A stretch of 64,000 nt of DNA from a bacterium (GCA_030430495.1 JAUIKM010000018.1:1-64000), one strand, 5' to 3'; positions 3,827-46,094 are shown, counted from the stretch's first letter. Numbers and translations are program-made. The notes: generated from the letters alone by a model not told the origin.

Positions 3827-4476
3827 TACACACTCAGGTCATCAGAATCCGGTCTGGTCAACGCTTGGCAGTGATGAGCGTTGATAACCATAGAATGACT
3901 CCACCTTAAGGTATGGAACGAATCACTCTCAGGTGATGACCATAGAAGAGACCTGTCAATTGTCTGCATGGTTTCGTTTTCAAATTGGCCTTGGTGATTG
4001 ACGTTTGCCAATAACGGTGGCCGTTGTTTGTTGGTTGAATCTAATAGGAATCATAATTTTAGACAACTCTCTTTTCATAGTCGGGTTCTTTTTCAAGTCA
4101 CAAAAAAACGTATCACATACGACTCGATGGGTTGATTTTTTTCGTTTCTTGCTTGGTTTTGCGTCGATTTTACGTTCTTGAAGCCTCATTCTATGACACC
4201 CGGAATGCGAACTCCCAAAAAATACCGGGTCACGGAATTGTACGGAATTTCGCCTCAGTTCACTAGATCACGATTGAAAAGAAAAGCATCCTGATGCGTG
4301 CTTTAGGAGAATATAATTATATATTTGTGTGGCGAAAGCGTTTCTCCATGCCTCTCCACGTACACCTCTTGGCATGTAGACGATTTGTGCTTTACCATGA
4401 TGATTTTACCAATCATCATACGGCAAAAGCCTGTCTCAACTTCGATGGCAAAGAATAACACAAATTGGGTAAAATT
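3827..4476. other. 650-bp gene-poor region between the small ORF and the TPR-LuxR gene
   Basis: AT-rich. Short frames here have no convincing start or family resemblance. Short words such as ACCATAGAA and CTCAGGT recur near 3830-3960 without clear periodicity. A strong palindrome lies at 4397-4419 just before the regulator gene (separate entry). Otherwise I see nothing. Confidence 0.5.
4397..4419. promoter_or_regulatory. Operator-like palindrome upstream of TPR-LuxR gene
   Basis: ATGATGATT (4397-4405), a 5-bp centre, then AATCATCAT (4411-4419): perfect 9-bp arms. It lies 58 bp before the ATG at 4477, a usual place for an autoregulatory operator of a LuxR-type HTH protein. Binding by the neighbouring regulator is inference. 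Confidence 0.5.
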
Positions 4477-5853
4477 ATGCCTACTGCACAAGAGCTGAAA
4501 CTTCGTCTTGAGAAAAAAATCGAGCGACTGAGGACCCCGGAAGAAAAAGCAAAAATCATGTTGAAGTATTGCTTCGACTTCATATCCAGAGATACCAATT
4601 TGGTCTGGGAGCTAGTTAACCGAGCACTACAGATATCAGAAAAGCATAAATACTTGTTCGGGATTAAACATAGCTACAAGGTCTTGGGGCAGTACTACAA
4701 AGCGACGTCAAACTTTGATAAAGCGATAGCTTCACTCAATAAGGGACTTGAGCTAAATCATGGAGTCAGCGACTCTAGTTTTAACGCGGTTTGCCTGATG
4801 TATCTAGCCGATGTGTATGGTGCTACGGGAAAAAGTGAACAGTCAGTTGAAGCATACGAAAACAGCTTAACTATTTTTCAGTCGTTGGACAATATGAATG
4901 GAAAACAAGGAGCCATTTGTTGCTTAATAAATCTAGGTGACACTTTTGTTGTCAAAAAACAGTACACAAAAGCACTATCATACTTTCAAAGATCAGAAGA
5001 CTTAGCTCACAACATTGACGCTAAAGCTCTCATATATGAGTCTCGGACTCGAATAGGAACTGTCCTACGGATACACCAGAGATATGATGAAGCTATCGAG
5101 CTGCTCGAAACATGCCGTCAGTATTTTGAAGATAGTGGACACAAAAGAGATTTGTCAACGGTATATAATGAACTGGGAGGCTGTTTATTCGAAATTGGAC
5201 GCTACAAAGAAGCTTTTGAGTACTTAAAAAGGAGCTTAGAAATTGACCATCAGTTTGGACTGAAAGAAAATGAGGTGGTCGTAAATTTAAATATTGCTCG
5301 GTGCTATATACGAGTCGGCAACATCCCAGACGCAATGAAGTATCTGGCTCAAGGCAACGAGATAGGACTTGACATTGGATTTGACAAAACCAAGACAATG
5401 ATTTCAAACGCCTTCTCGCTCTTAGCGGAATCACTGAGTGAAATAGTTGCTCAAAGTCACGAAGATCGCCAGATGTTACGTACCATGAGTAAAGAACTAG
5501 AAAAATTAACAAAAGCTGATTCGCAGGAAAACAGATCAAACACCACAAAGTTAAAGAATATCAAATCGAATATTGATGAACAACTAACTGCTAAAATTCG
5601 GGACAGAGACACGATACACTTGCAAGTTTCAGATACCTGGCGAAAACGATTTTCCACTTCTTTTCCTCGTCTTACGGAAGCGGAGCTAACCGTTTGTACA
5701 CTCCTGAAGCTATTTCCTACCATTAAGAACAAAGAAATTGCCGAAAAGATGAATGTAGGAACTGGTTCTGTACAAACGTACAGACGAAGAGTGATAAAAA
5801 AGATAGGATTACGCTCCGGTGAACGACTTCACACTTTCATTGCAAATTTCTAA
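4477..5853 (+). CDS. TPR protein with C-terminal LuxR-type DNA-binding domain
   Basis: A 458-residue cytosolic regulator. Residues about 60-320 form a run of TPR units (for example AVCLMYLADVYGATGKSEQS and YNELGGCLFEIGRYKEAFEY). A charged coiled stretch follows (about 330-385). The last 65 residues are a GerE/LuxR-type helix-turn-helix: LTEAELTVCTLLKL, then NKEIAEKMNV and VQTYRRRVIKKIGL. Such TPR-HTH proteins are frequent transcription regulators in Bacteroidota. I chose ATG 4477; the upstream in-frame TTG at 4465 is less likely. A perfect palindrome at 4397-4419 precedes the gene and could be its operator. What it senses is unknown; the TPR part would bind a protein or peptide. Confidence 0.85.
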   Translation: MPTAQELKLRLEKKIERLRTPEEKAKIMLKYCFDFISRDTNLVWELVNRALQISEKHKYLFGIKHSYKVLGQYYKATSNFDKAIASLNKGLELNHGVSDSSFNAVCLMYLADVYGATGKSEQSVEAYENSLTIFQSLDNMNGKQGAICCLINLGDTFVVKKQYTKALSYFQRSEDLAHNIDAKALIYESRTRIGTVLRIHQRYDEAIELLETCRQYFEDSGHKRDLSTVYNELGGCLFEIGRYKEAFEYLKRSLEIDHQFGLKENEVVVNLNIARCYIRVGNIPDAMKYLAQGNEIGLDIGFDKTKTMISNAFSLLAESLSEIVAQSHEDRQMLRTMSKELEKLTKADSQENRSNTTKLKNIKSNIDEQLTAKIRDRDTIHLQVSDTWRKRFSTSFPRLTEAELTVCTLLKLFPTIKNKEIAEKMNVGTGSVQTYRRRVIKKIGLRSGERLHTFIANF

Positions 5854-36053: not shown

Positions 36054-36743
36054 ATGAAGTGTTTCAGACTTTGCCTCTTTGTCTTCCTGGCACTGGCCGC
36101 CTCCCGGCAGTCAGTCAGCGCATTGGATTTTTTCCCCGGCTGGGGCGTCGTCAACTCTCACATGGGTTATGAAGAGTATCGCGTCCTCGAATTGAATACT
36201 TTCAACGGACAAACGACGCCGGGAATCGAATACCGCCATCTGGCCAAAACGTTAAACAGCTCGACAGACCTGAACCTGCCTGTAATCCGGGCGCTGGACT
36301 ACTTCACGCTTGGACTCAGGTTCGGGTTTAACCTCGTCGGCGGCGGCGACAGAATTCCGACGGCGCTGGAATATGCCGCGGATCCGGAGGGCAGTGTAAG
36401 GCCGGAACCGGTCGGCCCGCAGAGTCCCGACGAAGCCGGCGCGTTAGCTCTGCCGCTGTTTGTCACGTTTAACTACGGAGCCACGACAAACGGCGAATTC
36501 GAGCACCCCTTTGGTTTGACGCTGGGCTTTGGAAAAACATTCACGTACCCTTCGCAGTACGAAGAGTGGCTTGAATTCCCGACGGCATATTTTGAACTCA
36601 ACTGGAGCCCCCTGCGCGACGACATCGATGCCTGGTTTGTCTCGCTGCGTTATGTCACATCACTTGGCAGCTACGAATTTAACGAGCGGCTGTCGGTAAC
36701 CACCCGGCAGCTGTCAATCGGCGTCGGCTACACATCGTATTGA
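36054..36743 (+). CDS. Probable outer-membrane beta-barrel protein
   Basis: A 229-residue protein with a signal peptide (CLFVFLALAASRQSVSA). The mature part has alternating polar/hydrophobic strands (FTLGLRFGFNLVGGG, PLFVTFNYG, GLTLGFGKTF, AWFVSLRYV, QLSIGVGYTSY) and ends in an aromatic residue, as outer-membrane barrels do. It follows the propeller lipoprotein by 35 bp. No named family. Confidence 0.7.
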   Translation: MKCFRLCLFVFLALAASRQSVSALDFFPGWGVVNSHMGYEEYRVLELNTFNGQTTPGIEYRHLAKTLNSSTDLNLPVIRALDYFTLGLRFGFNLVGGGDRIPTALEYAADPEGSVRPEPVGPQSPDEAGALALPLFVTFNYGATTNGEFEHPFGLTLGFGKTFTYPSQYEEWLEFPTAYFELNWSPLRDDIDAWFVSLRYVTSLGSYEFNERLSVTTRQLSIGVGYTSY

Positions 36744-36773
36744 GGCCGACTTAACACGTGCTCTCCGCCTCAT

Positions 36774-36841
36774 GAACTTCGCCCTCGCTCCGCTCCGGGC
36801 TTGTTTTATGACTTTTTTGTTAATCTTCGAGTTTGAAGTTC
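36774..36841. repeat. Dispersed repeat, copy 1
   Basis: A 68-bp unit starting GAACTTCGCCCTCG and ending in GAAGTTC, so its ends are inverted (GAACTTC/GAAGTTC). A central TTATGACTTTTTTGTTAA is shared by all copies. It lies 53 bp beyond the 3' end of the minus-strand gene at 36894. Copies 2 and 3 are at 40221 and 43990, in the same orientation and the same position relative to minus-strand genes. Confidence 0.9.
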
Positions 36842-36893
36842 AGGGGTTTGAGGTTGGTTGAGGTTTAATAGTTCCGGGAGACGTCACAACTGT

Positions 36894-37571
36894 TCATTTT
36901 CCCGTTCGAATTTCTCCACTGCTGCCAGTCGCTGCGACAGGTTTGGGAATGGGATATGCGTCAAATATGCTGCGCGCATCTGCAAACACCGATTGCACAT
37001 TGGCTATAGCCTCACGAACTCTTGCACGATGCTCAGTCATTGTGTTTATTCTTGTTTCCATGAAATCCCAATTCCAATAATCAAGCTCGTCCGCGTACAC
37101 CCGTGAAACAATCGTGTCGAACTCCATAAAGTATTTTCGATGCAGGTCAATTTCTTCGGTCAGAGTATATATCTGTCTGACCTTATGCACCTGCTCCAGT
37201 CTGAAGTCCATATACGTTTTATCGTCCAGGTCACCCAGTTTCAGCTTCGATATGTGCGTGGCAATATTGTGCAACATTGGTGAAACAGCATCCATTTTTA
37301 CAATTCTAGATCTGAACTCAATCAAAATAGTATGACGCAGTGCAAGACGTGCACTATCAACTCTTTCCCAGTCGTAAAACATCTGATGCGGAACGTCAAG
37401 GCGCAAATCTTGCAGCAGACTGTCGGCCGCTTCGATGCCATTTTTTATTTCCCATACCGATTGTAACTGAGCAGGCGTCATGTCTTCAAATGGATTGTCA
37501 TCGCAGGAACACAGTCCAAATGCGGCGACAATTACACACAATCCGGTCGCTGAGTAACGCAGTAGTTTCAT
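36894..37571 (-). CDS. Lipoprotein of unknown function
   Basis: A 225-residue protein with a lipoprotein signal (VIVAAFGLCSC, Cys near 22-23) and a helical, charged body (about 30-205). No family recognised. Its start is 12 bp after the stop of the large membrane protein gene, so they form an operon. Base composition is AT-richer than the flanking genes, and the pair is bracketed by two copies of the dispersed repeat. Confidence 0.75.
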   Translation of the reverse strand: MKLLRYSATGLCVIVAAFGLCSCDDNPFEDMTPAQLQSVWEIKNGIEAADSLLQDLRLDVPHQMFYDWERVDSARLALRHTILIEFRSRIVKMDAVSPMLHNIATHISKLKLGDLDDKTYMDFRLEQVHKVRQIYTLTEEIDLHRKYFMEFDTIVSRVYADELDYWNWDFMETRINTMTEHRARVREAIANVQSVFADARSIFDAYPIPKPVAATGSSGEIRTGK

Positions 37572-37583
37572 ACTACCCTCCGC

Positions 37584-39932
37584 TTAAGGAATTCTGAAAT
37601 ATTGTTTAACGTCATCAATTGCACCGCCGAATGTTGTATTGATGTTCGTCATGTCGCTGGATACCCTGCTTATGTCCCTTGCCGCACTTGCATTGTGACT
37701 TTCATTCAGTTGGTTTATAGCACCCAATGAGCTCAACAACTCAATGACAGTTCCGCCCTTGCCTACTTCTCCCAGTTGTTCGTCTGAGATCAACTCAACG
37801 CGTTTTACCAAAGCATCCAACTTGTGATTCATGCTGGAAAGCGCAATGTCAACAGCATCAACTGAGTGAATGCCGCCATAAGACTCCTGTTTAGCATCCA
37901 GTTGCTTTTCATCGACAAGGGACGCCCCATACTTCGGCAAATACCAGTTAGGGGCATCCAATGCCCAGTAGGGATCTTTGACTTGTACACCGTCTCTGTC
38001 AATTGGCGCTACCAGGGGAACAAACAACAACAAAACGACAACGCCCCAGGTGTCGATCCAGATAAACTTGTTCTTGACGTTTTGAGTTTGTTTTAAAACC
38101 AATCGCCTTGCCACACAATACCCAAACAGAGTCAACAGAAACAGGAGCATCCCATACTTTTGCATGTTTTTCAGAATTTTAGCCATTTTATCTTTGCCCA
38201 TGTCAGTTGCCTGATTACTGAGTTTTTCCCAATAAAAACGGTAATCGGTGGCGGCCTTGTATTGTTGGCGCACTCCGGCGAGCAGACGCCCCTTGCGAGC
38301 CATTAACTCAAGGCGGGTGTATGCTTCGTTGGAAATGTTACTCAACACACCAGTAAGAGCTACAGAGGATACTTTTAAAGCCAGGCGCCTGGCACTTTCT
38401 ATTCTACTTTCCAGATACGCCTTCTCCAGATCTTCCGAACTTCCATGAACATAGTGTCGTGAATTTTCAGCTTCCGGACTATTTTGAATGTGTTCATAAC
38501 TTAAGATGGCTTGTTGGACTTGCGTTCTTACCTCACGGTTGCCGATGCTTGCAATCAATCCTTCCAATTCCAGTTCAGACTTGAAAATTTCTTTCTGGAT
38601 TTCGATCAAATCGCAAAGATCCGCTGCTTGACTGCCTCCTCGCTCCTGCAATTTTTCTCTTGCAACATTTAATGAATTCGAGTCTGAAATTGAGAGCATT
38701 CTTGCAATCAGATACTGCCCGGCACAACACCTCTCGTAGCGAATCGCATCAGCCAGTTTCAGATTGGCGCTATCTGTCTCGGACATAACATTCGCTGCCG
38801 CGTGATATGCCGTGTCGCTTGCAAACGACTCCATTAACAGTCCTTTCAGTTTCTTAACAATGTCGGCGGTGTCAATCACGCTGGATTCGCGACTTCCGGT
38901 GGGTTCCGGCGGGATGCACAGAAAGCGCTCCTGAGTCTCAACTATACTGAGCAAATCCATGCTTGAAATGGTCGGGGGCGCACCCGACTCTTTAACATTC
39001 GTAATCTGTTCGGTTGTTTGGGAGCAAAAAATAATTACTCCCAGTAACATGACACAGGTTGAAAGGACGGAAAAAGTGCGGAACCACGCCCCGAACAACA
39101 AGCCTGAATCAGGTGTCCCAGCCTTTCTATTGTGATTTGTAGAAGAGCCGTTCGCCGCGGTACTTCCCGCATTCTTTTCAACAAGTCTGTAGTCAAAATA
39201 GTATGCCAGTACAATGACGGAAAAATATATAAGGCTGGCCACTTTGACCCAATCGTTCATTCCCGGCTTCGCCTCCCATGGAGCTAAAAGGAAGTAACCT
39301 CCTATCAAGGAAAGGGCAACAAACGGAGTGGAAATCGCCAAATTAAACTGTTGGAAATACCGTTTGTCTTTACCGGCTATCTTTGGACTGCGGCTGCAAA
39401 CAATCAGAACAATCGAATGTAGCAAAGCCAGTCCCAAAAAAATCACGGGGCTTGCATTCTCGCCCAACACAATTATCGCAATCAAAGCAGCAATAGGATA
39501 AACTATCACAAATAGTATGCTGGCAAATAAACTCGAAGATGTTCCTCGGAAAGCTATCAACAACGCGGGCAAAGTGAAGTAGACAAGGCAGAAAACTCTG
39601 AACACCAGGGATGCGCTCAATGGCCCCAGCAATTCACCAAACCCCGAAACCACTCTGGAGAGTATAATGCCAAACGCCGGCAGTGCTATCAGTATTCCGG
39701 GCAGCAGCTCTTTTACTTTTTCCAGGGTCAAAGGATCATCGTTCACACGTGAGTCGGCATGCACATCTTCAGGCCCATCCTGTAAAGAAGCTGCCGGGCT
39801 TTCTCCCTGAGCGGGCTCGGATGATTGACCGCCGACACCTGTCGGTTCGTCGCTCCGCCCACCGGATGAAGCTGCCTCTCCTGCCTGGTCCGACTGCTCC
39901 GTATCTCCAACAGGAGGATCATTTTCCGCCAT
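37584..39932 (-). CDS. Large membrane protein with long helical domain
   Basis: A 782-residue protein. A disordered, acidic Ser/Gly/Glu-rich start (1-65) is followed by six or seven membrane spans between about 75 and 235, one more near 290-310, a long helical extramembrane region (330-590), two further spans near 600-655, and a helical tail. There is no enzyme motif I can name. It is AT-richer than its surroundings. The promoter region contains the palindrome AATACGTA-N5-TACGTATT (40105-40125). It forms an operon with the downstream lipoprotein gene. The architecture suggests a signalling or envelope-spanning scaffold, but that is inference. Confidence 0.75.
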   Translation of the reverse strand: MAENDPPVGDTEQSDQAGEAASSGGRSDEPTGVGGQSSEPAQGESPAASLQDGPEDVHADSRVNDDPLTLEKVKELLPGILIALPAFGIILSRVVSGFGELLGPLSASLVFRVFCLVYFTLPALLIAFRGTSSSLFASILFVIVYPIAALIAIIVLGENASPVIFLGLALLHSIVLIVCSRSPKIAGKDKRYFQQFNLAISTPFVALSLIGGYFLLAPWEAKPGMNDWVKVASLIYFSVIVLAYYFDYRLVEKNAGSTAANGSSTNHNRKAGTPDSGLLFGAWFRTFSVLSTCVMLLGVIIFCSQTTEQITNVKESGAPPTISSMDLLSIVETQERFLCIPPEPTGSRESSVIDTADIVKKLKGLLMESFASDTAYHAAANVMSETDSANLKLADAIRYERCCAGQYLIARMLSISDSNSLNVAREKLQERGGSQAADLCDLIEIQKEIFKSELELEGLIASIGNREVRTQVQQAILSYEHIQNSPEAENSRHYVHGSSEDLEKAYLESRIESARRLALKVSSVALTGVLSNISNEAYTRLELMARKGRLLAGVRQQYKAATDYRFYWEKLSNQATDMGKDKMAKILKNMQKYGMLLFLLTLFGYCVARRLVLKQTQNVKNKFIWIDTWGVVVLLLFVPLVAPIDRDGVQVKDPYWALDAPNWYLPKYGASLVDEKQLDAKQESYGGIHSVDAVDIALSSMNHKLDALVKRVELISDEQLGEVGKGGTVIELLSSLGAINQLNESHNASAARDISRVSSDMTNINTTFGGAIDDVKQYFRIP

Positions 39933-40075
39933 GGTCTGTCCTTTGCATTTGTTGAATTCAAATTGTTACTACAGGCAGGCAGTAGTCTTGCCGAGCTAAC
40001 TTGAAATCAGCAGTACACAGTGCTTTACAGATCGCCATGGCATTTCCCGCACACGGCGCTTCCCTTGATCAATCA

Positions 40076-40125
40076 TCAGACTAACATATTTAATTGACAC
40101 TGTCAATACGTACAGCCTACGTATT
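40076..40125 (-). promoter_or_regulatory. Promoter with AATACGTA palindrome, copy 1
   Basis: Perfect palindrome AATACGTA-CAGCC-TACGTATT at 40105-40125. On the minus strand its right arm runs into TATTG (-33 position) and a weak -7 (TAGTCTGA) follows after 20 bp. A second palindrome TTGACACTGTCAA (40094-40106) overlaps it. It precedes the gene starting at 39932 by about 170 bp. The same palindrome recurs before two other units. Confidence 0.65.
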
Positions 40126-40220
40126 AACGGTTTGCACATGTTATTTTTTGAACAGATTTTAACGGCGGCAAAACGGCAACCGTTCATACAAGGCCTACAA
40201 TCGTGTGTTAGATACCGCAT

Positions 40221-40287
40221 GAACTTCGCCCTCGCTCCGCTCCGGCTTGTTTTATGACTTTTTTGTTAACCTTCGAGCTTGAAGTTC
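40221..40287. repeat. Dispersed repeat, copy 2
   Basis: A 67-bp copy nearly identical to copy 1, with the same GAACTTC/GAAGTTC ends. Similarity to copy 3 continues beyond the unit through a hairpin (40326-40346) to about 40380. It lies downstream of the VWA-protein gene on the minus strand. Confidence 0.9.
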
Positions 40288-40325
40288 AAGGGTTTCAAGC
40301 CCGCTGAAAGTCTTTAAACTCATAA

Positions 40326-40346
40326 ACTCCGAACGCTGTTCGGAGT
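40326..40346 (-). terminator. Terminator-like hairpin after the VWA gene
   Basis: ACTCCGAA-CGCTG-TTCGGAGT, perfect 8-bp stem, 83 bp beyond the stop of the minus-strand gene at 40429. A hairpin of the same sequence family sits at the matching place beyond the gene at 44193. The U-run on the minus strand is weak. Confidence 0.55.
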
Positions 40347-40428
40347 CTCGGTGTTTCTCTCTGCGTGACAAACAAGATGGCTGTTGCTGGAATCGGCTGG
40401 TGTGGAAGGCGCCTCTTAAACATCCTGC

Positions 40429-43400
40429 CTATGGCGCAAGTCTGGTGACGATCAGGTGGCTGTGGCAAAACTCCTCGCGGTGGAGCCCCTGCAGGACATT
40501 CCGGATAAAGCCGTATGCGTCGGAGGCGCGGTAAAAACCACCGTAACAGGGCGCCCCGTCGTCATAAAATTGTCTGCCGGCATACGTTGATTCCAGATTC
40601 TTGAATGAATCAAAACGAAGCCGCATGCCGCGTTCATCGCACTCGTACCGGGGATTGAGCAGTTTGATCGTATACCTGAACTTCCCTTTGGGACGGTCGA
40701 TCTGCGGATAGGCGTCCGGGTCGTAACGGTCATCAATCACTCCGACGCGCACGCAACAATTCATGCGCCGCGACCAGTCTTTTACGAGGTCGCGTCTGCT
40801 CTGGCCGGCATAGGGGTTTAAGTCCTCCACGTATTTGTGTTCGCCGAAGCCGGTGGCAACGTATATCTGCGAGGGTTGACAAAAACCCTTGAGGTACTGC
40901 TCAACCGTAGTTAAACGCTCCCAGGACAGGTTGAAATTGTACTCGGCCGAATTAACATCGCTGGTGTAGCCCTCCAGGCCGATGCACATATCCGGATTTT
41001 CGCGCAGAGTACAGGCGATATCCCGCATGTCCTGCGGATTCAGCACGTCTCTCAGACCGGATTTTCCAACGGCAAAGTAAATGTTCGAGAACGACGTTGA
41101 ACATGACTTTGAGCACGGAGTAGTGCAGTTCTGCGAACACGGCTTTGCGTAGCGCTGCGAATGCGGCTCGGAGCAAGGCTTTGCGTAGCGCTGCGAATGC
41201 GGCTCGGAGCAAGGCTTCGCGTAGCGCCGCGAATGCGGCTCCGGGCAGGGATCCGCGTAGCGCTGCGAATGCGGCTCCGGACAGGGCTCCGTGTAGCGCT
41301 GCGAATGCGGCTCCGGACAGGGGTCGTAGCTCGGCTTCGAATACGGTTTAAGAAACGGCTTTGAATGCGATTTCGGGCAAGAACCGGAATGCGGCCGCGG
41401 GCAGGGACAGGGATCGTAGCGCGGTCCCGGACAGGGATCGGAGTACGATTTCGGGCAGGGATGCTCACAGGGATGCGAATATCGCTTCCAGCAAGGTGTT
41501 GGGTACGTTTTTGAGCACGGCATTCTGCGATTGCAATACCACCTGTCTTGTGCCAATATCCCCGAGTAAGGACTGCATATTCTCAGTAAAAGATCGGTCG
41601 GCGAATAGGAGTGACAATCGCGATGCCGACGATAACACAGCCGATACAGGTTCTGTGTCATGTAGCCGTGAAGTTGGCTGAAGATCTCGCGCAAATCCAC
41701 GCGCTCGCCACGGGATGGAATCGGAAAGAAATAACCGCCCGTTCTTTCTGTTAAAGCGGTATATGAAGAAGAAGACGACGATGATTCCGTATACGTAAAC
41801 GCGCTGAACTCGATTCCCCGGCCCTCCAGACAGGAGTCAAAAATCGCCCTGTAGTTAAGAACCGTCGTACTGCTGCTGAATTGACTGGATGGACCGACGA
41901 CGCTGACGGTCACATTTTCCAATCTCAACAGATCGACCATGCTCTCCGCCGTGAATCGCGTCCACCCTCTCGAAGGCCCGGCGTCCCGCGCGTCGTGAAA
42001 TCCGGCATCCGTTAAGACCACAAAGTTTTTATACGCATTGGGCCTCAACGGCAAATCGAGGCCCGCGGCCATCGCCTCAAGTGCATTTTCGTTCGGATCC
42101 CCGCCGCCGTGCGCATAGACCGCTGAAACCCACTCCGAAAAAAGGAACACATCGGACGTCATTCCCAGGCAATTGCGCACTTCGTCGCCGTATACCACCA
42201 GCCCGAGGCGATAATCAACTCCGGAGTACGACAAATGTCTGGCAAAAAAGTGAATATCATTCTTCAGAGCGTTTATATAGGGCTGCATGCTTTGAGTACC
42301 GTCGATGATAAACACAAAGTCGACGGGAGTATTTACTCGGCTGCAAATATTATCCACGGAAATTATTTCAACCGGCCGCCCATTTTCCAGGAGTTCCAAC
42401 TGATGCATATATGTCGGCCGCAAGAAACGACCTGTGCGCGAATCCCGCATGTCAAAATACAGCTCTCCGACCCGGCCCTCCGCGCAGTCCGCACCGCGCA
42501 GATTTAACATAATATCGCCCTTCCGGATTTCGCCGTTCCACCTGTCATGCGGGCCGGGGTAGTTGTACAACCCGCCTCCGCCAGGGCCGGGCGAAGCGCG
42601 ATAGTCGCCGTATCCCGGATGACCAAGTGAACCGTCGTATCCGCCATGACCATCATAGCCGCCATAACCGCCTGAGCCGCCATAACCGTCTGAGCCGCCA
42701 TAACCGCCATAACCATCATGGCCGCCATAACCGCCTGAGCCGCCATAACCGCCCGAACTACCATAACCATCATGGCCGCCATAACCGCCCGAACTGCCAT
42801 AACCGCCCGAACTGCCATAACCGCCCGAACTGCCATAACCGCCCGAGTCGCCATAACCGCCCGAGCCGCTTTCCACGTCAAATCTCCCCTCGCCCAGCAT
42901 GCGTCTTGCATCTTCGGCAAAGGGGTTGTCGAAATATTTTTCGGCAAATTCTCTGAACGCTTCCGCGCCGGCATTCCGGGCGGTCAGAAACTCAATCTTC
43001 CACATTTTGCAGCGCGCCACATCCGCGGCTTTGCTGGATTGGTGGCCGTGAATGAAGTCGAGAATTTCGTGCACACTGTTTAAGGTGCGGAGCATATCCA
43101 GCAGGCGTTTTTCCTCTTCCGCACTGTAGACGGTCGGCGGCATGACCTTAACATCCACCTTCATTGGCTCCAGCCATTCCGACAGCTCGGGATCGAGTGC
43201 ATCGACCAGCTCGGCAACGATCGTGGTGTCCTGCATCGGCGCGAACTTGATTTTGCCTTCCAGCAGCTCGACGCGTTCACCCAGCTTGACGGCAAGCTGA
43301 TCGTATTCTGCGTACTCGCCGGCAGTCCAGGAGATGGTGGTCGAATCATAGCGCTTGATCACCGGCGGATCCGCCGTTAACTCAATCGTGGTCATGTTTG

Positions 43401-43518
43401 CACAGGCGGTGAACGCCAGCGCCGCCGCCGCGGCAAGCAGCAGGCCCAACATCCTCTCAAGGCGAGGCCTGATTTCGTGGTTAAGTCGAATGCGATGGTT
43501 CACGGTACTCTGTCCCAT
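40429..43518 (-). CDS. VWA/OmpA-like lipoprotein with two repeat regions
   Basis: A 1029-residue protein. A lipoprotein-like signal (LAAAAALAFTAC, Cys near 39) comes first. Residues about 215-307 are a Gly/Tyr repeat (GGYGSSGGYGGHDGYG type). A von Willebrand A domain follows (about 395-570) with the MIDAS start FVFIIDGTQSM and VVLTDAGFHDA. Residues about 640-806 are Cys/Pro-rich and include five 12-residue units of the form EPHSQRYAKPCS. Next is an OmpA-like peptidoglycan-binding-type domain (IYFAVGKSGL ... LEGYTSDVNSAEYNFNLSWERL, about 812-900) and a 130-residue tail. The whole suggests a surface or periplasmic adhesive scaffold. It has the shared palindromic promoter upstream and the dispersed repeat downstream. 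Both repeat regions are minisatellite-like and may vary in length. Confidence 0.85.
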   Translation of the reverse strand: MGQSTVNHRIRLNHEIRPRLERMLGLLLAAAAALAFTACANMTTIELTADPPVIKRYDSTTISWTAGEYAEYDQLAVKLGERVELLEGKIKFAPMQDTTIVAELVDALDPELSEWLEPMKVDVKVMPPTVYSAEEEKRLLDMLRTLNSVHEILDFIHGHQSSKAADVARCKMWKIEFLTARNAGAEAFREFAEKYFDNPFAEDARRMLGEGRFDVESGSGGYGDSGGYGSSGGYGSSGGYGSSGGYGGHDGYGSSGGYGGSGGYGGHDGYGGYGGSDGYGGSGGYGGYDGHGGYDGSLGHPGYGDYRASPGPGGGGLYNYPGPHDRWNGEIRKGDIMLNLRGADCAEGRVGELYFDMRDSRTGRFLRPTYMHQLELLENGRPVEIISVDNICSRVNTPVDFVFIIDGTQSMQPYINALKNDIHFFARHLSYSGVDYRLGLVVYGDEVRNCLGMTSDVFLFSEWVSAVYAHGGGDPNENALEAMAAGLDLPLRPNAYKNFVVLTDAGFHDARDAGPSRGWTRFTAESMVDLLRLENVTVSVVGPSSQFSSSTTVLNYRAIFDSCLEGRGIEFSAFTYTESSSSSSSYTALTERTGGYFFPIPSRGERVDLREIFSQLHGYMTQNLYRLCYRRHRDCHSYSPTDLLLRICSPYSGILAQDRWYCNRRMPCSKTYPTPCWKRYSHPCEHPCPKSYSDPCPGPRYDPCPCPRPHSGSCPKSHSKPFLKPYSKPSYDPCPEPHSQRYTEPCPEPHSQRYADPCPEPHSRRYAKPCSEPHSQRYAKPCSEPHSQRYAKPCSQNCTTPCSKSCSTSFSNIYFAVGKSGLRDVLNPQDMRDIACTLRENPDMCIGLEGYTSDVNSAEYNFNLSWERLTTVEQYLKGFCQPSQIYVATGFGEHKYVEDLNPYAGQSRRDLVKDWSRRMNCCVRVGVIDDRYDPDAYPQIDRPKGKFRYTIKLLNPRYECDERGMRLRFDSFKNLESTYAGRQFYDDGAPCYGGFYRASDAYGFIRNVLQGLHREEFCHSHLIVTRLAP
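41149..41329. repeat. 36-bp tandem repeat inside the VWA gene
   Basis: Five imperfect copies of a 36-bp unit (core GCTGCGAATGCGGCTC) coding for the 12-residue (P/S)EPHSQRYAxPC repeat. Copies differ at a few positions, so some time has passed since amplification, but length changes by slippage or unequal exchange are likely. Confidence 0.9.
42630..42875. repeat. GGYG-coding minisatellite inside the VWA gene
   Basis: About 245 bp of short tandem units built from CCGCCATAACCG blocks, coding for Gly-Gly-Tyr-Gly/Ser repeats. Units of 15-18 bp recur with small changes. It is coding sequence in frame throughout, not a CRISPR array: units are contiguous without unique spacers. Confidence 0.9.
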
Positions 43519-43686
43519 AATTTTGTTAAATGATTGTCAAACCACGAATCCTGTCTGTTCTTTTGTCTGCCGGGCATAACGGCACGAGTACCGTCGACCT
43601 GCCACGTGGGCGGTGCACGCCACAGGCAGCTTGTCACAGATACCGCATCCCATGCCCACTGGTCAGATGTGGGTATAAGATGACGA

Positions 43687-43736
43687 CAAAGGTAGATATT
43701 GCTCGGATTTTTACAAATACGTAGTGTATACGTATT
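43687..43736 (-). promoter_or_regulatory. Bacteroidota-type promoter with AATACGTA palindrome, copy 2
   Basis: On the minus strand: TTTG (43714-43717), 19 bp, TACCTTTG (43687-43694), the Bacteroidota -33/-7 consensus with ideal spacing. The perfect palindrome AATACGTA-GTGTA-TACGTATT (43716-43736) overlaps the -33 element. It drives the VWA gene starting at 43518. A protein bound here would block or contact RNA polymerase. Confidence 0.8.
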
Positions 43737-43989
43737 CCTGCATTTTCGCTGGAAAATTCAGACCCCGGACCTGCACTCGCGATGACTCAATGACGGCGGA
43801 TCGACGGCGGCGCACTTCAGAACCTGGCGGGAACGCCGGTCGGATCGGTATATTTGTCAGGGTCGCACGTCCCGGGTCAACATTGCAGCTCGAGTTTTTC
43901 ACCTGACCGGCAGTGCAACATCACGATTGCCATGCCCGAAACACCTGGATTTTGTGATCAAAATATTATGGGCGCTTTTGAACCCGCTT

Positions 43990-44056
43990 GAACTTCGCCC
44001 TCGCTTTGCTCCGGCTTGTTTCATGACTTTTTTGTTAATCTTCGGGTTGGAAGCCT
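43990..44056. repeat. Dispersed repeat, copy 3
   Basis: The most diverged copy: same GAACTTCGCCCTCG start and central CTTTTTTGTTAATC, but the right end reads GAAGCCTG. Similarity to copy 2 continues through a following hairpin and a CTGCrYGACrAACAA-like block. It lies beyond the minus-strand T9SS gene at 44193. Confidence 0.85.
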
Positions 44057-44090
44057 GAAGACTTGCAGCCGGCTGAACATCTTCAAACGC

Positions 44091-44120
44091 AAAGACTCCG
44101 AACCACAGCTCGGAGTCTTT
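44091..44120 (-). terminator. Terminator hairpin after the T9SS pseudogene
   Basis: AAAGACTCCGA (44091-44101) and TCGGAGTCTTT (44110-44120) form a perfect 11-bp stem with an 8-nt loop. It is the counterpart of the hairpin at 40326-40346. Confidence 0.7.
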
Positions 44121-44192
44121 GCGTTGAAATCTGCACGACGAACAAAAGGGCCTTTGCAGGAATGCAGCAGGTGTCCACGGTCGTCGTGAAGC

Positions 44193-45515
44193 CTATTGGA
44201 CCACAGTTAACGCCATGCGGCTCAGCGCTTCGCCGGTCGAGGGTTCTTCCAGCACCAGAGAATACACACCGGCCGCTATCTGCACCGCGCCCAATTCAAG
44301 CTCCAGGCGGTGTTTGCCGGGCGCCAGCGTCCCGCTCCAAACAATACCTGCTCTCGCGCCGCTCGTGGTATAAACGGCCAGTTGAAGTCGCATTTCTTCA
44401 AAACCAACGAGTGAGATGTTAAGGGGCTCGGCCGGACTGACCGGGTTGGGCGTGACCGAACGAATGCTGAAAACGGGAACATAAAAATCAGCTTGTTCGT
44501 TTGTCACACCGGCGGAGGGTTTGACCGAGACCGGATACTTAACAGCTTTCCAGACAGTTGTCCCATCAACTACTTCCTGTTCGTAGTAGCGCGACCGGAA
44601 CATTTCGTGTTGTTCCGGTGAGAAGAACCAGAGTTTTGTGTCTTCCGGCAGCCAGCCGGTCGCCGCGCGGACTTCATTGCAGTAATTCAGAACAGCCTGA
44701 AACCATTGATCGTTTAACGCCGCCACATATGCATCGTCGCGCCGGTTGCCCTTTTCATCCATGATCGCCGATTCATTAAAATAGCAACCTGGCTCTTTCA
44801 TCAGCGTCACGCCGTAAGGCGTCGATCCCCAGCGACGAGTGACGACCTGAATGTAGGCTGTTTTGCCGGCATGCTCCTGCGATACTGAAACCTAGTGATT
44901 GGCCAATCTCGGGTTGTCGCCATAAAAAGGATTTGAATACGGATCGTCATGCGCGTCAATTCCGGCCGTGTTTAACACCTGCAGAATCTCGTGCGTTGTC
45001 GCATCCCGCAGTTGAATCTCCCATTCGGTTTTGTCCATGACGTCCCAGGGAGTGTTGCCGGTCCCGCCGCCCGGCGGATCGTCGGCATCTGGCGGAAACG
45101 CGCTCGACGGAGCCCACATTCCGGTGCGGCGATAAAAGTGGATGTCGGCCGCGTCCTGCGGAAGCTGAAAATCCTCGGATCTGCTGTTCGGCTCCAGATC
45201 CAGCTGCTCGACCTGGCCGCTGTTGTCCTGTATGGTCAGATCCGCAACGTTCCAATCTACGATGTTCACGCGCTTCGACTCCGTCGGACTGACGACCCGA
45301 ATCTCGCCAAAACGCATTTCAACGCCCGAATACGAAAAAGTATTGCGATAGTCGAGATACTGCAGGAAATTCCAGTCGTCGCGCGTTATGTTGAAAATTG
45401 TTTCCGGCGGTTGGGCTGACGAAGGACAAGGTAGGAAAAGACACAGGATCAGGCATAGTGCCGCGTTCCGGAGCCAGGATTGTTTGGACGTATATTTTAA
45501 CATGTTGGTCTGCAT
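44193..45515 (-). pseudogene. Secreted T9SS-domain protein interrupted by an in-frame amber codon
   Basis: One reading frame of about 440 codons broken once. The first part (start 45515 or 45503) has a signal peptide (AALCLILCLFLPCPSSAQ) and about 165 mature residues ending NPRLANH. Then TAG at 44892-44894 interrupts. The same frame continues at once (VSVSQEHAGKTAYIQ) without any frameshift to a C-terminal T9SS sorting domain (VTPNPVSPAEPLNISL ... IAAGVYSLVLEE). A CAG to TAG change would explain it. It may be a young pseudogene, a sequence error or read-through. The upstream half alone would be secreted without its sorting signal. It follows the Cys-rich gene (45538) by 22 bp and is probably in the same unit. 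Confidence 0.75.
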
Positions 45516-45537
45516 TGGTGAAAAAAAAGCGTTGATA

Positions 45538-46017
45538 TTAGTCGGGCGGCAAAAAGCCATTACAAATGAGATAACAATCATCAATTCGTGAAAATTCATT
45601 GCAATCAAACAATTGACAAGCATCAACACAGTCGCAACCATGCGCTCTTGCTACAGTTTTGCAGTCCGAGTTTACGAATGTATAAACATCAGCTCGGTCT
45701 TGATGCATGGCATCCGGATAACATTGAGGGCCCTGGGCTGAAGCTCTCAGACATAAAACCACTTCACTGGATACTTCGCCACAAATGTCGTCCAATCCAC
45801 AGGAGCACTCAATAACACAGCGGTTTGAACATGGAACTGTGGAGAGAAAGCACAGCCACCTTTCCAAATATTGCATTCCCGTCTGATTGTCAACCCAGGA
45901 TTTTTCACAACAGTCGTTGTGCGTTTCTTGATTGTCTTGAAGTACATTTTCTGAGACAAGTGGTCCAGCAGATATGATCAGAAGAATGGCAGTTGTTATG
46001 ATAGTACGCATTTTCAT
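45538..46017 (-). CDS. Cysteine-rich secreted protein
   Basis: A 159-residue protein with a signal peptide (TIITTAILLIISAGPLVS). The mature part holds 17 Cys residues, several in close groups (NDCCEK, VPCSNRC, IECSCG, GCDCVDAC), so it is probably disulfide-bonded after export. AT-rich relative to its neighbours. The palindromic promoter element lies 57 bp upstream. No family recognised; the Cys-rich character matches the Cys/Pro region of the VWA protein under the same promoter type. Confidence 0.75.
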   Translation of the reverse strand: MKMRTIITTAILLIISAGPLVSENVLQDNQETHNDCCEKSWVDNQTGMQYLERWLCFLSTVPCSNRCVIECSCGLDDICGEVSSEVVLCLRASAQGPQCYPDAMHQDRADVYTFVNSDCKTVARAHGCDCVDACQLFDCNEFSRIDDCYLICNGFLPPD

Positions 46018-46044
46018 TTTAATATCCTTTAATAAATATGCTCT

Positions 46045-46094
46045 TCAATATATGGTCCTTGAACTGATTGCGCAATACATAACGCATACGTATT
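46045..46094 (-). promoter_or_regulatory. Promoter with AATACGTA palindrome, copy 3
   Basis: AATACATA-ACGCA-TACGTATT (46074-46094), one mismatch from the other two copies. On the minus strand its end merges with ATTG (-33, 46073-46076). A -7 element TATATTGA (46045-46052) follows after 20 bp. It precedes the Cys-rich gene start at 46017. The position relative to -33 is the same as in copy 2. Confidence 0.75.

Follow-up and report, generated by a model that had tools for sequence, protein, structure and literature searches.

A putative LuxR-type operator before dispersed surface-protein operons in an uncultured bacterial order

Three adjacent units on one strand of a bacterial genome each begin at the same palindrome and are each followed by the same repeat; do they form a module of their own, or do they belong to something wider? 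The units lie in a stretch of 64,000 nucleotides, hereafter the window, and the first-pass annotation had taken them for a co-regulated cassette. The co-regulation gains support from an operator of fixed geometry and from targets among envelope proteins, but the cassette does not, the two signals being separate genome-wide: the three units look like members of a dispersed, genome-wide co-regulated surface-protein set rather than a self-contained cassette.

Contents and boundaries of the three units

Genes were called by a simple longest-ORF rule (Table 1). The contents of the units are broadly as first described, that is, a membrane protein with a lipoprotein, a VWA/OmpA lipoprotein, and a Cys-rich secreted protein with a protein of the type IX secretion system (T9SS) kind, except that the T9SS-like gene of unit 3 is split by an in-frame TAG, for which a pseudogene, a recent mutation and a sequencing error are the alternatives. 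Its paralogue on another contig (C24) is uninterrupted and 420 aa long; the Cys-rich protein has a paralogue there as well, also with an operator. The C terminus of the unit 3 protein resembles a T9SS tail yet is not reported by Pfam, and the unit 1 membrane protein has no Pfam or NCBIfam match. The unit 2 lipoprotein matches the Pfam models VWA (1.8e-7) and OmpA (8.3e-6); it contains about 25 Gly-Tyr repeat units of nearly 9 bp as well as 36-bp repeats of Cys-Pro-Glu-Pro-His type, a low-complexity architecture of surface-protein kind for which there is no family name.

Table 1. Genes, putative operators and promoter elements, and 3' features of the three units (window coordinates)
Feature	Position	Strand	Description
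3' repeat, copy 1	36768..36850		between convergent genes
Unit 1, gene 2	36894..37571	-	225-aa lipoprotein; lipobox-like N-terminus
Unit 1, gene 1	37584..39932	-	782-aa multi-pass membrane protein
Unit 1, putative -7 box	40081..40088	-	TATGTTAG, 16 nt after operator; weakest of the three
Unit 1, putative operator	40105..40125	-	AATACGTAGGCTGTACGTATT read toward genes; exact consensus palindrome
3' repeat, copy 2	40215..40295		homology with copy 3 extends to 40393
Terminator-like hairpin after unit 2	40325..40348		strong; separate from the repeat
Unit 2, gene	40429..43518	-	1029-aa lipoprotein; Gly-Tyr repeats, VWA, Cys-Pro repeats, OmpA-like domain
Unit 2, -7 box	43687..43694	-	TACCTTTG, exactly 21 nt after operator; perfect TAnnTTTG
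Unit 2, putative operator	43716..43736	-	exact palindrome match
3' repeat, copy 3	43984..44064		after unit 3
Strong terminator-like hairpin after unit 3	44085..44126		region -62.5 kcal/mol, z -5.1
Unit 3, gene 2	44193..45641	-	T9SS-like secreted protein, in-frame TAG at 44892-44894
Unit 3, gene 1	45538..46017	-	159-aa Cys-rich secreted protein
Unit 3, -7 box	46045..46052	-	TATATTGA, 21 nt after operator; 4/6
Unit 3, putative operator	46074..46094	-	palindrome, one mismatch

Both signals were confirmed at all three units. The palindrome, AATACGTA-N5-TACGTATT, is exact before units 1 and 2 and carries a single mismatch before unit 3, and the window holds no further match at up to three mismatches; shuffled windows contain 0.11 matches on average, and none of 100 reaches three. 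Its general form is A[AC]TACGTA-N5-TACGTA[GT]T, a sequence unrelated to the repeat.

The three copies of the 3' repeat are 79-97% identical by segment; between copies 2 and 3 the homology runs further, over 127 nt at 79% and another 54 nt at 72%, and takes in a terminator-like hairpin. The repeat stands after all three units, but copy 1 also follows a rightward gene ending at 36743. At full length it occurs in the genome only as the three window copies; its 15-nt core, TGACTTTTTTGTTWR, has about 150 genome matches at up to one mismatch, against five for the control, and most of the 36 distinct copies sampled lie between genes, convergent pairs being the most frequent neighbours and divergent pairs the least. 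In the window, the core TGACTTTTTTGTT(TG/AA), mostly found 3' of genes, lies at 36809, 40255 and 44024. It is nearly absent from two same-family genomes, while another genome of the order (G013) has about 70 core matches, most of them TGACATTTTTGTTAA. An ordinary intrinsic terminator was rejected as the identity of the repeat: directly before the T-run, the folding of 38 copies does not clearly surpass that of shuffled sequence (mean z -0.54), although units 2 and 3 are each followed by a strong hairpin of their own. A coding role was rejected too, the one-mismatch variants lacking codon bias as judged by eye. The repeat is best seen as an independent, genome-wide extragenic element that has multiplied locally.

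Operator sites and promoter geometry across the genome

The palindrome recurs at about 16 sites in the 5.6-Mb assembly (G000), against none for a reversed control at up to two mismatches, and a variant search adds one more (C24:49365). Most of the 16 lie, by inspection, upstream of envelope or secreted-protein operons, whose first genes encode mostly lipoproteins, outer-membrane-like proteins, VWA lipoproteins, Cys-rich secreted proteins and T9SS-tail proteins. A signal-peptide heuristic accepts 9 of 16 targets and 53 of 194 background genes (27%; p = 0.02), and more targets qualify by eye; the target at C58, a gene for a 61-aa Zn-finger-like protein, is not secreted.

The sites have a fixed place in the promoter. 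Exactly 21 nt past the operator, reading toward the genes, stands TAnnTTTG; primary-sigma promoters of Bacteroidota have this sequence as their -7 box and TTTG as their -33 element (PMC7366714). Such promoters, like the T9SS tails, suggest that the genome belongs to the Bacteroidota. Sites for this test were picked by consensus matching and without the -7 box, a site at C35 being left out since it had been found through that box, and the reading direction of each was fixed by the neighbouring genes. The -7 box score averages 3.87 of 6 at 21 nt, whereas the remaining offsets average 1.56 (z = 8.3; 0 of 2000 shuffles). The same-family genome G002, whose operator has diverged to AATACGCAGTGTATACGTAKT and whose sites were likewise chosen without the box, also has it at 21 nt (z = 7.1), in one direction only; nothing of the coupling is seen in opposite reading directions. 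The joint pattern, operator-N21-TAnnTTTG, has 12 matches in 5.6 Mb and none for the control; it yielded the new site C35:13299, at which a TPR-LuxR gene precedes the operator-promoter of T9SS-like genes. Many operators pass straight into TTG at the -33 position, and the TTTG itself is largely replaced by operator sequence.

The fit is not uniform. At unit 1 the segment 21 nt away, TAGTCTGA, matches at three of six positions only, and the C24:49365 site and an array on C29 fit the spacing poorly too; those at C30 and C61, where no -7 box stands at 21 nt, are perhaps not promoters at all. Scans for generic sigma-70 promoters and for terminators gave no excess over shuffles. The C29 array (L064, 1052-1094) consists of four TACGTA boxes spaced at 11 bp, with a giant T9SS gene on one side and a divergent gene for a secreted protein on the other. 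A tie between the operator and a contractile-injection (phage-sheath-like) operon at C61 was considered and rejected, the site lying 505 bp upstream of the sheath gene with no -7 box at 21 nt, and no such operator site was found at 17 related sheath loci. The sheath-like gene (L071 6899-8605; Pfam PF17482) has relatives in Syntrophus, Mycolicibacterium and Zoogloea records, and its locus is a probable contractile injection system.

Overall, these data support the palindrome as a promoter operator with fixed geometry before many envelope-protein operons. Given the 21-nt spacing, it would lie near -43 and overlap the -33 element; with TAnnTTTG taken to cover -11 to -4, it would span about -53 to -33, with its centre at about -43. 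This position matches that of the lux box, a 20-bp palindrome centred at -42.5 (PMC4471428, PMC3376562). The simplest reading would be a LuxR-type activator contacting the polymerase.

LuxR-type genes and candidate regulators

Operators of three other families of the order adjoin LuxR-type (GerE) genes, several of them TPR-LuxR genes divergent from T9SS-secreted targets. In a search of 123 genomes from the order, an exact ACTACGTA-N5-TACGTAGT was present at only four sites, two in G000 and one each in G014 and G004, and both sites outside G000 directly adjoin TPR-LuxR or GerE genes. G014 has two TPR-LuxR loci divergent from T9SS-type targets, the promoters of which combine the operator with a -7 box matching at six or five of six positions; in G004, operators stand before a small gene of GerE type and before a gene for a lipoprotein; those in G048 and G074 lie near LuxR-type genes, and the G074 neighbours include a response regulator and a kinase-like gene. 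The GerE domains beside operators were recognized by Pfam in G014, G004, G074 and at C35 of G000, and by our own HMM in G048. Closer to the window, G002 has an operator (L111/L174) upstream of a membrane-protein gene in a layout similar to that of unit 1, the two membrane proteins giving no BLASTP match at 1e-3, and another site near homologues (25-27% identity) of the two genes flanking unit 1, which encode a WD40 lipoprotein and a 229-aa protein. The G002 locus L167 was rejected as an operator-bearing orthologue of unit 3: its spacing is 18 nt, and next to the site the N-terminal part is not open. G000, G002, G014 and G048 have an expanded set of TPR proteins with LuxR-HTH outputs, at 47 to 125 TPR-LuxR-like matches per genome, and nearby TPR proteins at L166 and L173 have histidine-kinase-like and cyclase-like ends.

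We consider it likely that the three units belong to a dispersed regulon of surface proteins, turned on by a LuxR-type regulator that is probably of the TPR-LuxR kind. The palindrome would be the operator of a trans-acting transcription activator with a GerE helix-turn-helix, which would bind the two TACGTA boxes, 11 bp apart and centred at about -43, over the -33 region of primary-sigma promoters and recruit RNA polymerase in the manner of LuxR at its lux box. The protein would probably come from the expanded TPR-LuxR family, with a TPR sensor region and a C-terminal GerE domain, and its regulon would comprise about a dozen or more dispersed operons, mostly for proteins of the envelope or secreted ones. 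The sequences themselves show that the operators form a family, that they keep one promoter geometry, which genes they precede and that in relatives they are linked to LuxR-type genes; from this we infer binding, activation as the direction of control and the kind of regulator. The three window units have no linked regulator. G000 has 38 GerE matches over the cut-off, NarL-type response regulators included, and thus more than one candidate regulator; the HTH domains alone did not single one out among the paralogues. One of the 38, a TPR protein whose C-terminal GerE domain is weak, is encoded in the window itself (4465-5853), some 31 kb away from the three units.

The proposed system resembles the lux operon of Vibrio fischeri and its homologues in its inverted repeat of about 20 bp near -42/-43, lying over the upstream promoter element, in the LuxR/GerE helix-turn-helix regulator and in its dispersed regulon members. 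It differs in the TACGTA-N5-TACGTA boxes 11 bp apart, in the Bacteroidota -33/-7 promoter, in a probable TPR sensor in place of the AHL-binding domain and in having no luxI linkage in the loci read. With MalT and other TPR-containing LuxR regulators it shares a TPR region and a C-terminal LuxR HTH: TPR_12 and GerE both exceed their Pfam cut-offs in the C35, G014 and G004 regulators, and TPR_MalT matches in the latter two. However, the MalT-type nucleotide-binding (STAND ATPase) domain has no Pfam match in five TPR-LuxR proteins, which are therefore MalT-like in layout but not MalT orthologues, and the targets are envelope proteins, not maltose genes. MalT boxes, too, differ from the present operator in sequence and promoter position. 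The NCBIfam TPR-LuxR family BT3442 matches at 44 bits, far under its 940-bit cut-off. In Bacteroidota, PorXY-SigP also has T9SS-related genes under its control (PMC4800418, PMC8265659). It acts on secretion-machinery genes by way of PorX and an ECF sigma factor, whereas here the targets encode cargo and further surface proteins and the promoters have the primary-sigma -7 box TAnnTTTG, which would tend to argue against a SigP-type promoter.

Other readings and the wider meaning

The cassette idea, in its strict form a mobile or duplicating surface-protein module bounded by palindrome and repeat, draws on the three adjacent same-strand units that bear both signals, on the homology of repeat copies 2 and 3 over about 180 nt and on the operator-bearing paralogue of the unit 3 gene pair at C24. 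Nevertheless, the three units encode mutually unrelated proteins, no recombinase was recognized among the genes within the units, and a search of the genome does not find the two signals always bracketing units: they occur together only at the three window units, operators scattered over about ten other contigs stand without the repeat, and some 150 cores stand without an operator. The first-pass annotation had named many genome-wide copies of both signals as evidence against itself; the repeat does have them, but operator copies are few and mostly precede one class of gene, which favours a regulon. We regard such a cassette as very improbable.

Within a regulon, the same geometry might serve the opposite sign of control, a repressor on the operator blocking polymerase at -33 so that surface proteins are derepressed together, and the overlap with the -33 element would suit a repressor equally well. 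Repressor sites, however, usually tolerate variable placement, and here one exact -7 spacing is kept in two genera; the -33 TTTG is mostly displaced by the operator, as at class-II activator promoters, and the linked regulators have GerE domains. Regulators with such domains are mostly activators, and we find repression quite unlikely. Activation might also come from a two-component response regulator of the NarL/FixJ type with a LuxR HTH, given several GerE proteins of response-regulator size in G000 and the response regulator and kinase-like gene near the G074 operator. This, too, seems unlikely to us: the adjacent regulators are TPR-LuxR proteins in G014, G004 and G048 and at C35 of G000, and in G001, of the same family, there are no operator sites and the three TPR matches all lack a detectable GerE domain, whereas operator sites and TPR-GerE proteins occur together in G000 and G002.

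For the preferred reading, activation by a TPR-LuxR protein, a generalization suggests itself that we hold only tentatively, as possible rather than probable: expanded TPR-LuxR one-component regulators in this uncultured order, some genomes of which have dozens of TPR-LuxR-like matches, might control batteries of T9SS-secreted and other surface proteins via co-diversifying TACGTA operators at a fixed, lux-box-like position within Bacteroidota promoters. The regulation of T9SS cargo appears little described outside studies of PorXY-SigP; among the papers listed by full-text searches of the open literature, none describes such an operator for T9SS cargo, and these searches found no paper that unites LuxR, palindrome and TACGTA. 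If true, the proposal would add a cargo-level control layer to the type IX secretion system, distinct from PorXY-SigP. The 21-nt-phased operator and TAnnTTTG would amount to a readable code, making TPR-LuxR regulons predictable across the lineage from sequence alone, and the co-evolution of regulator and operator would be traceable between genera.
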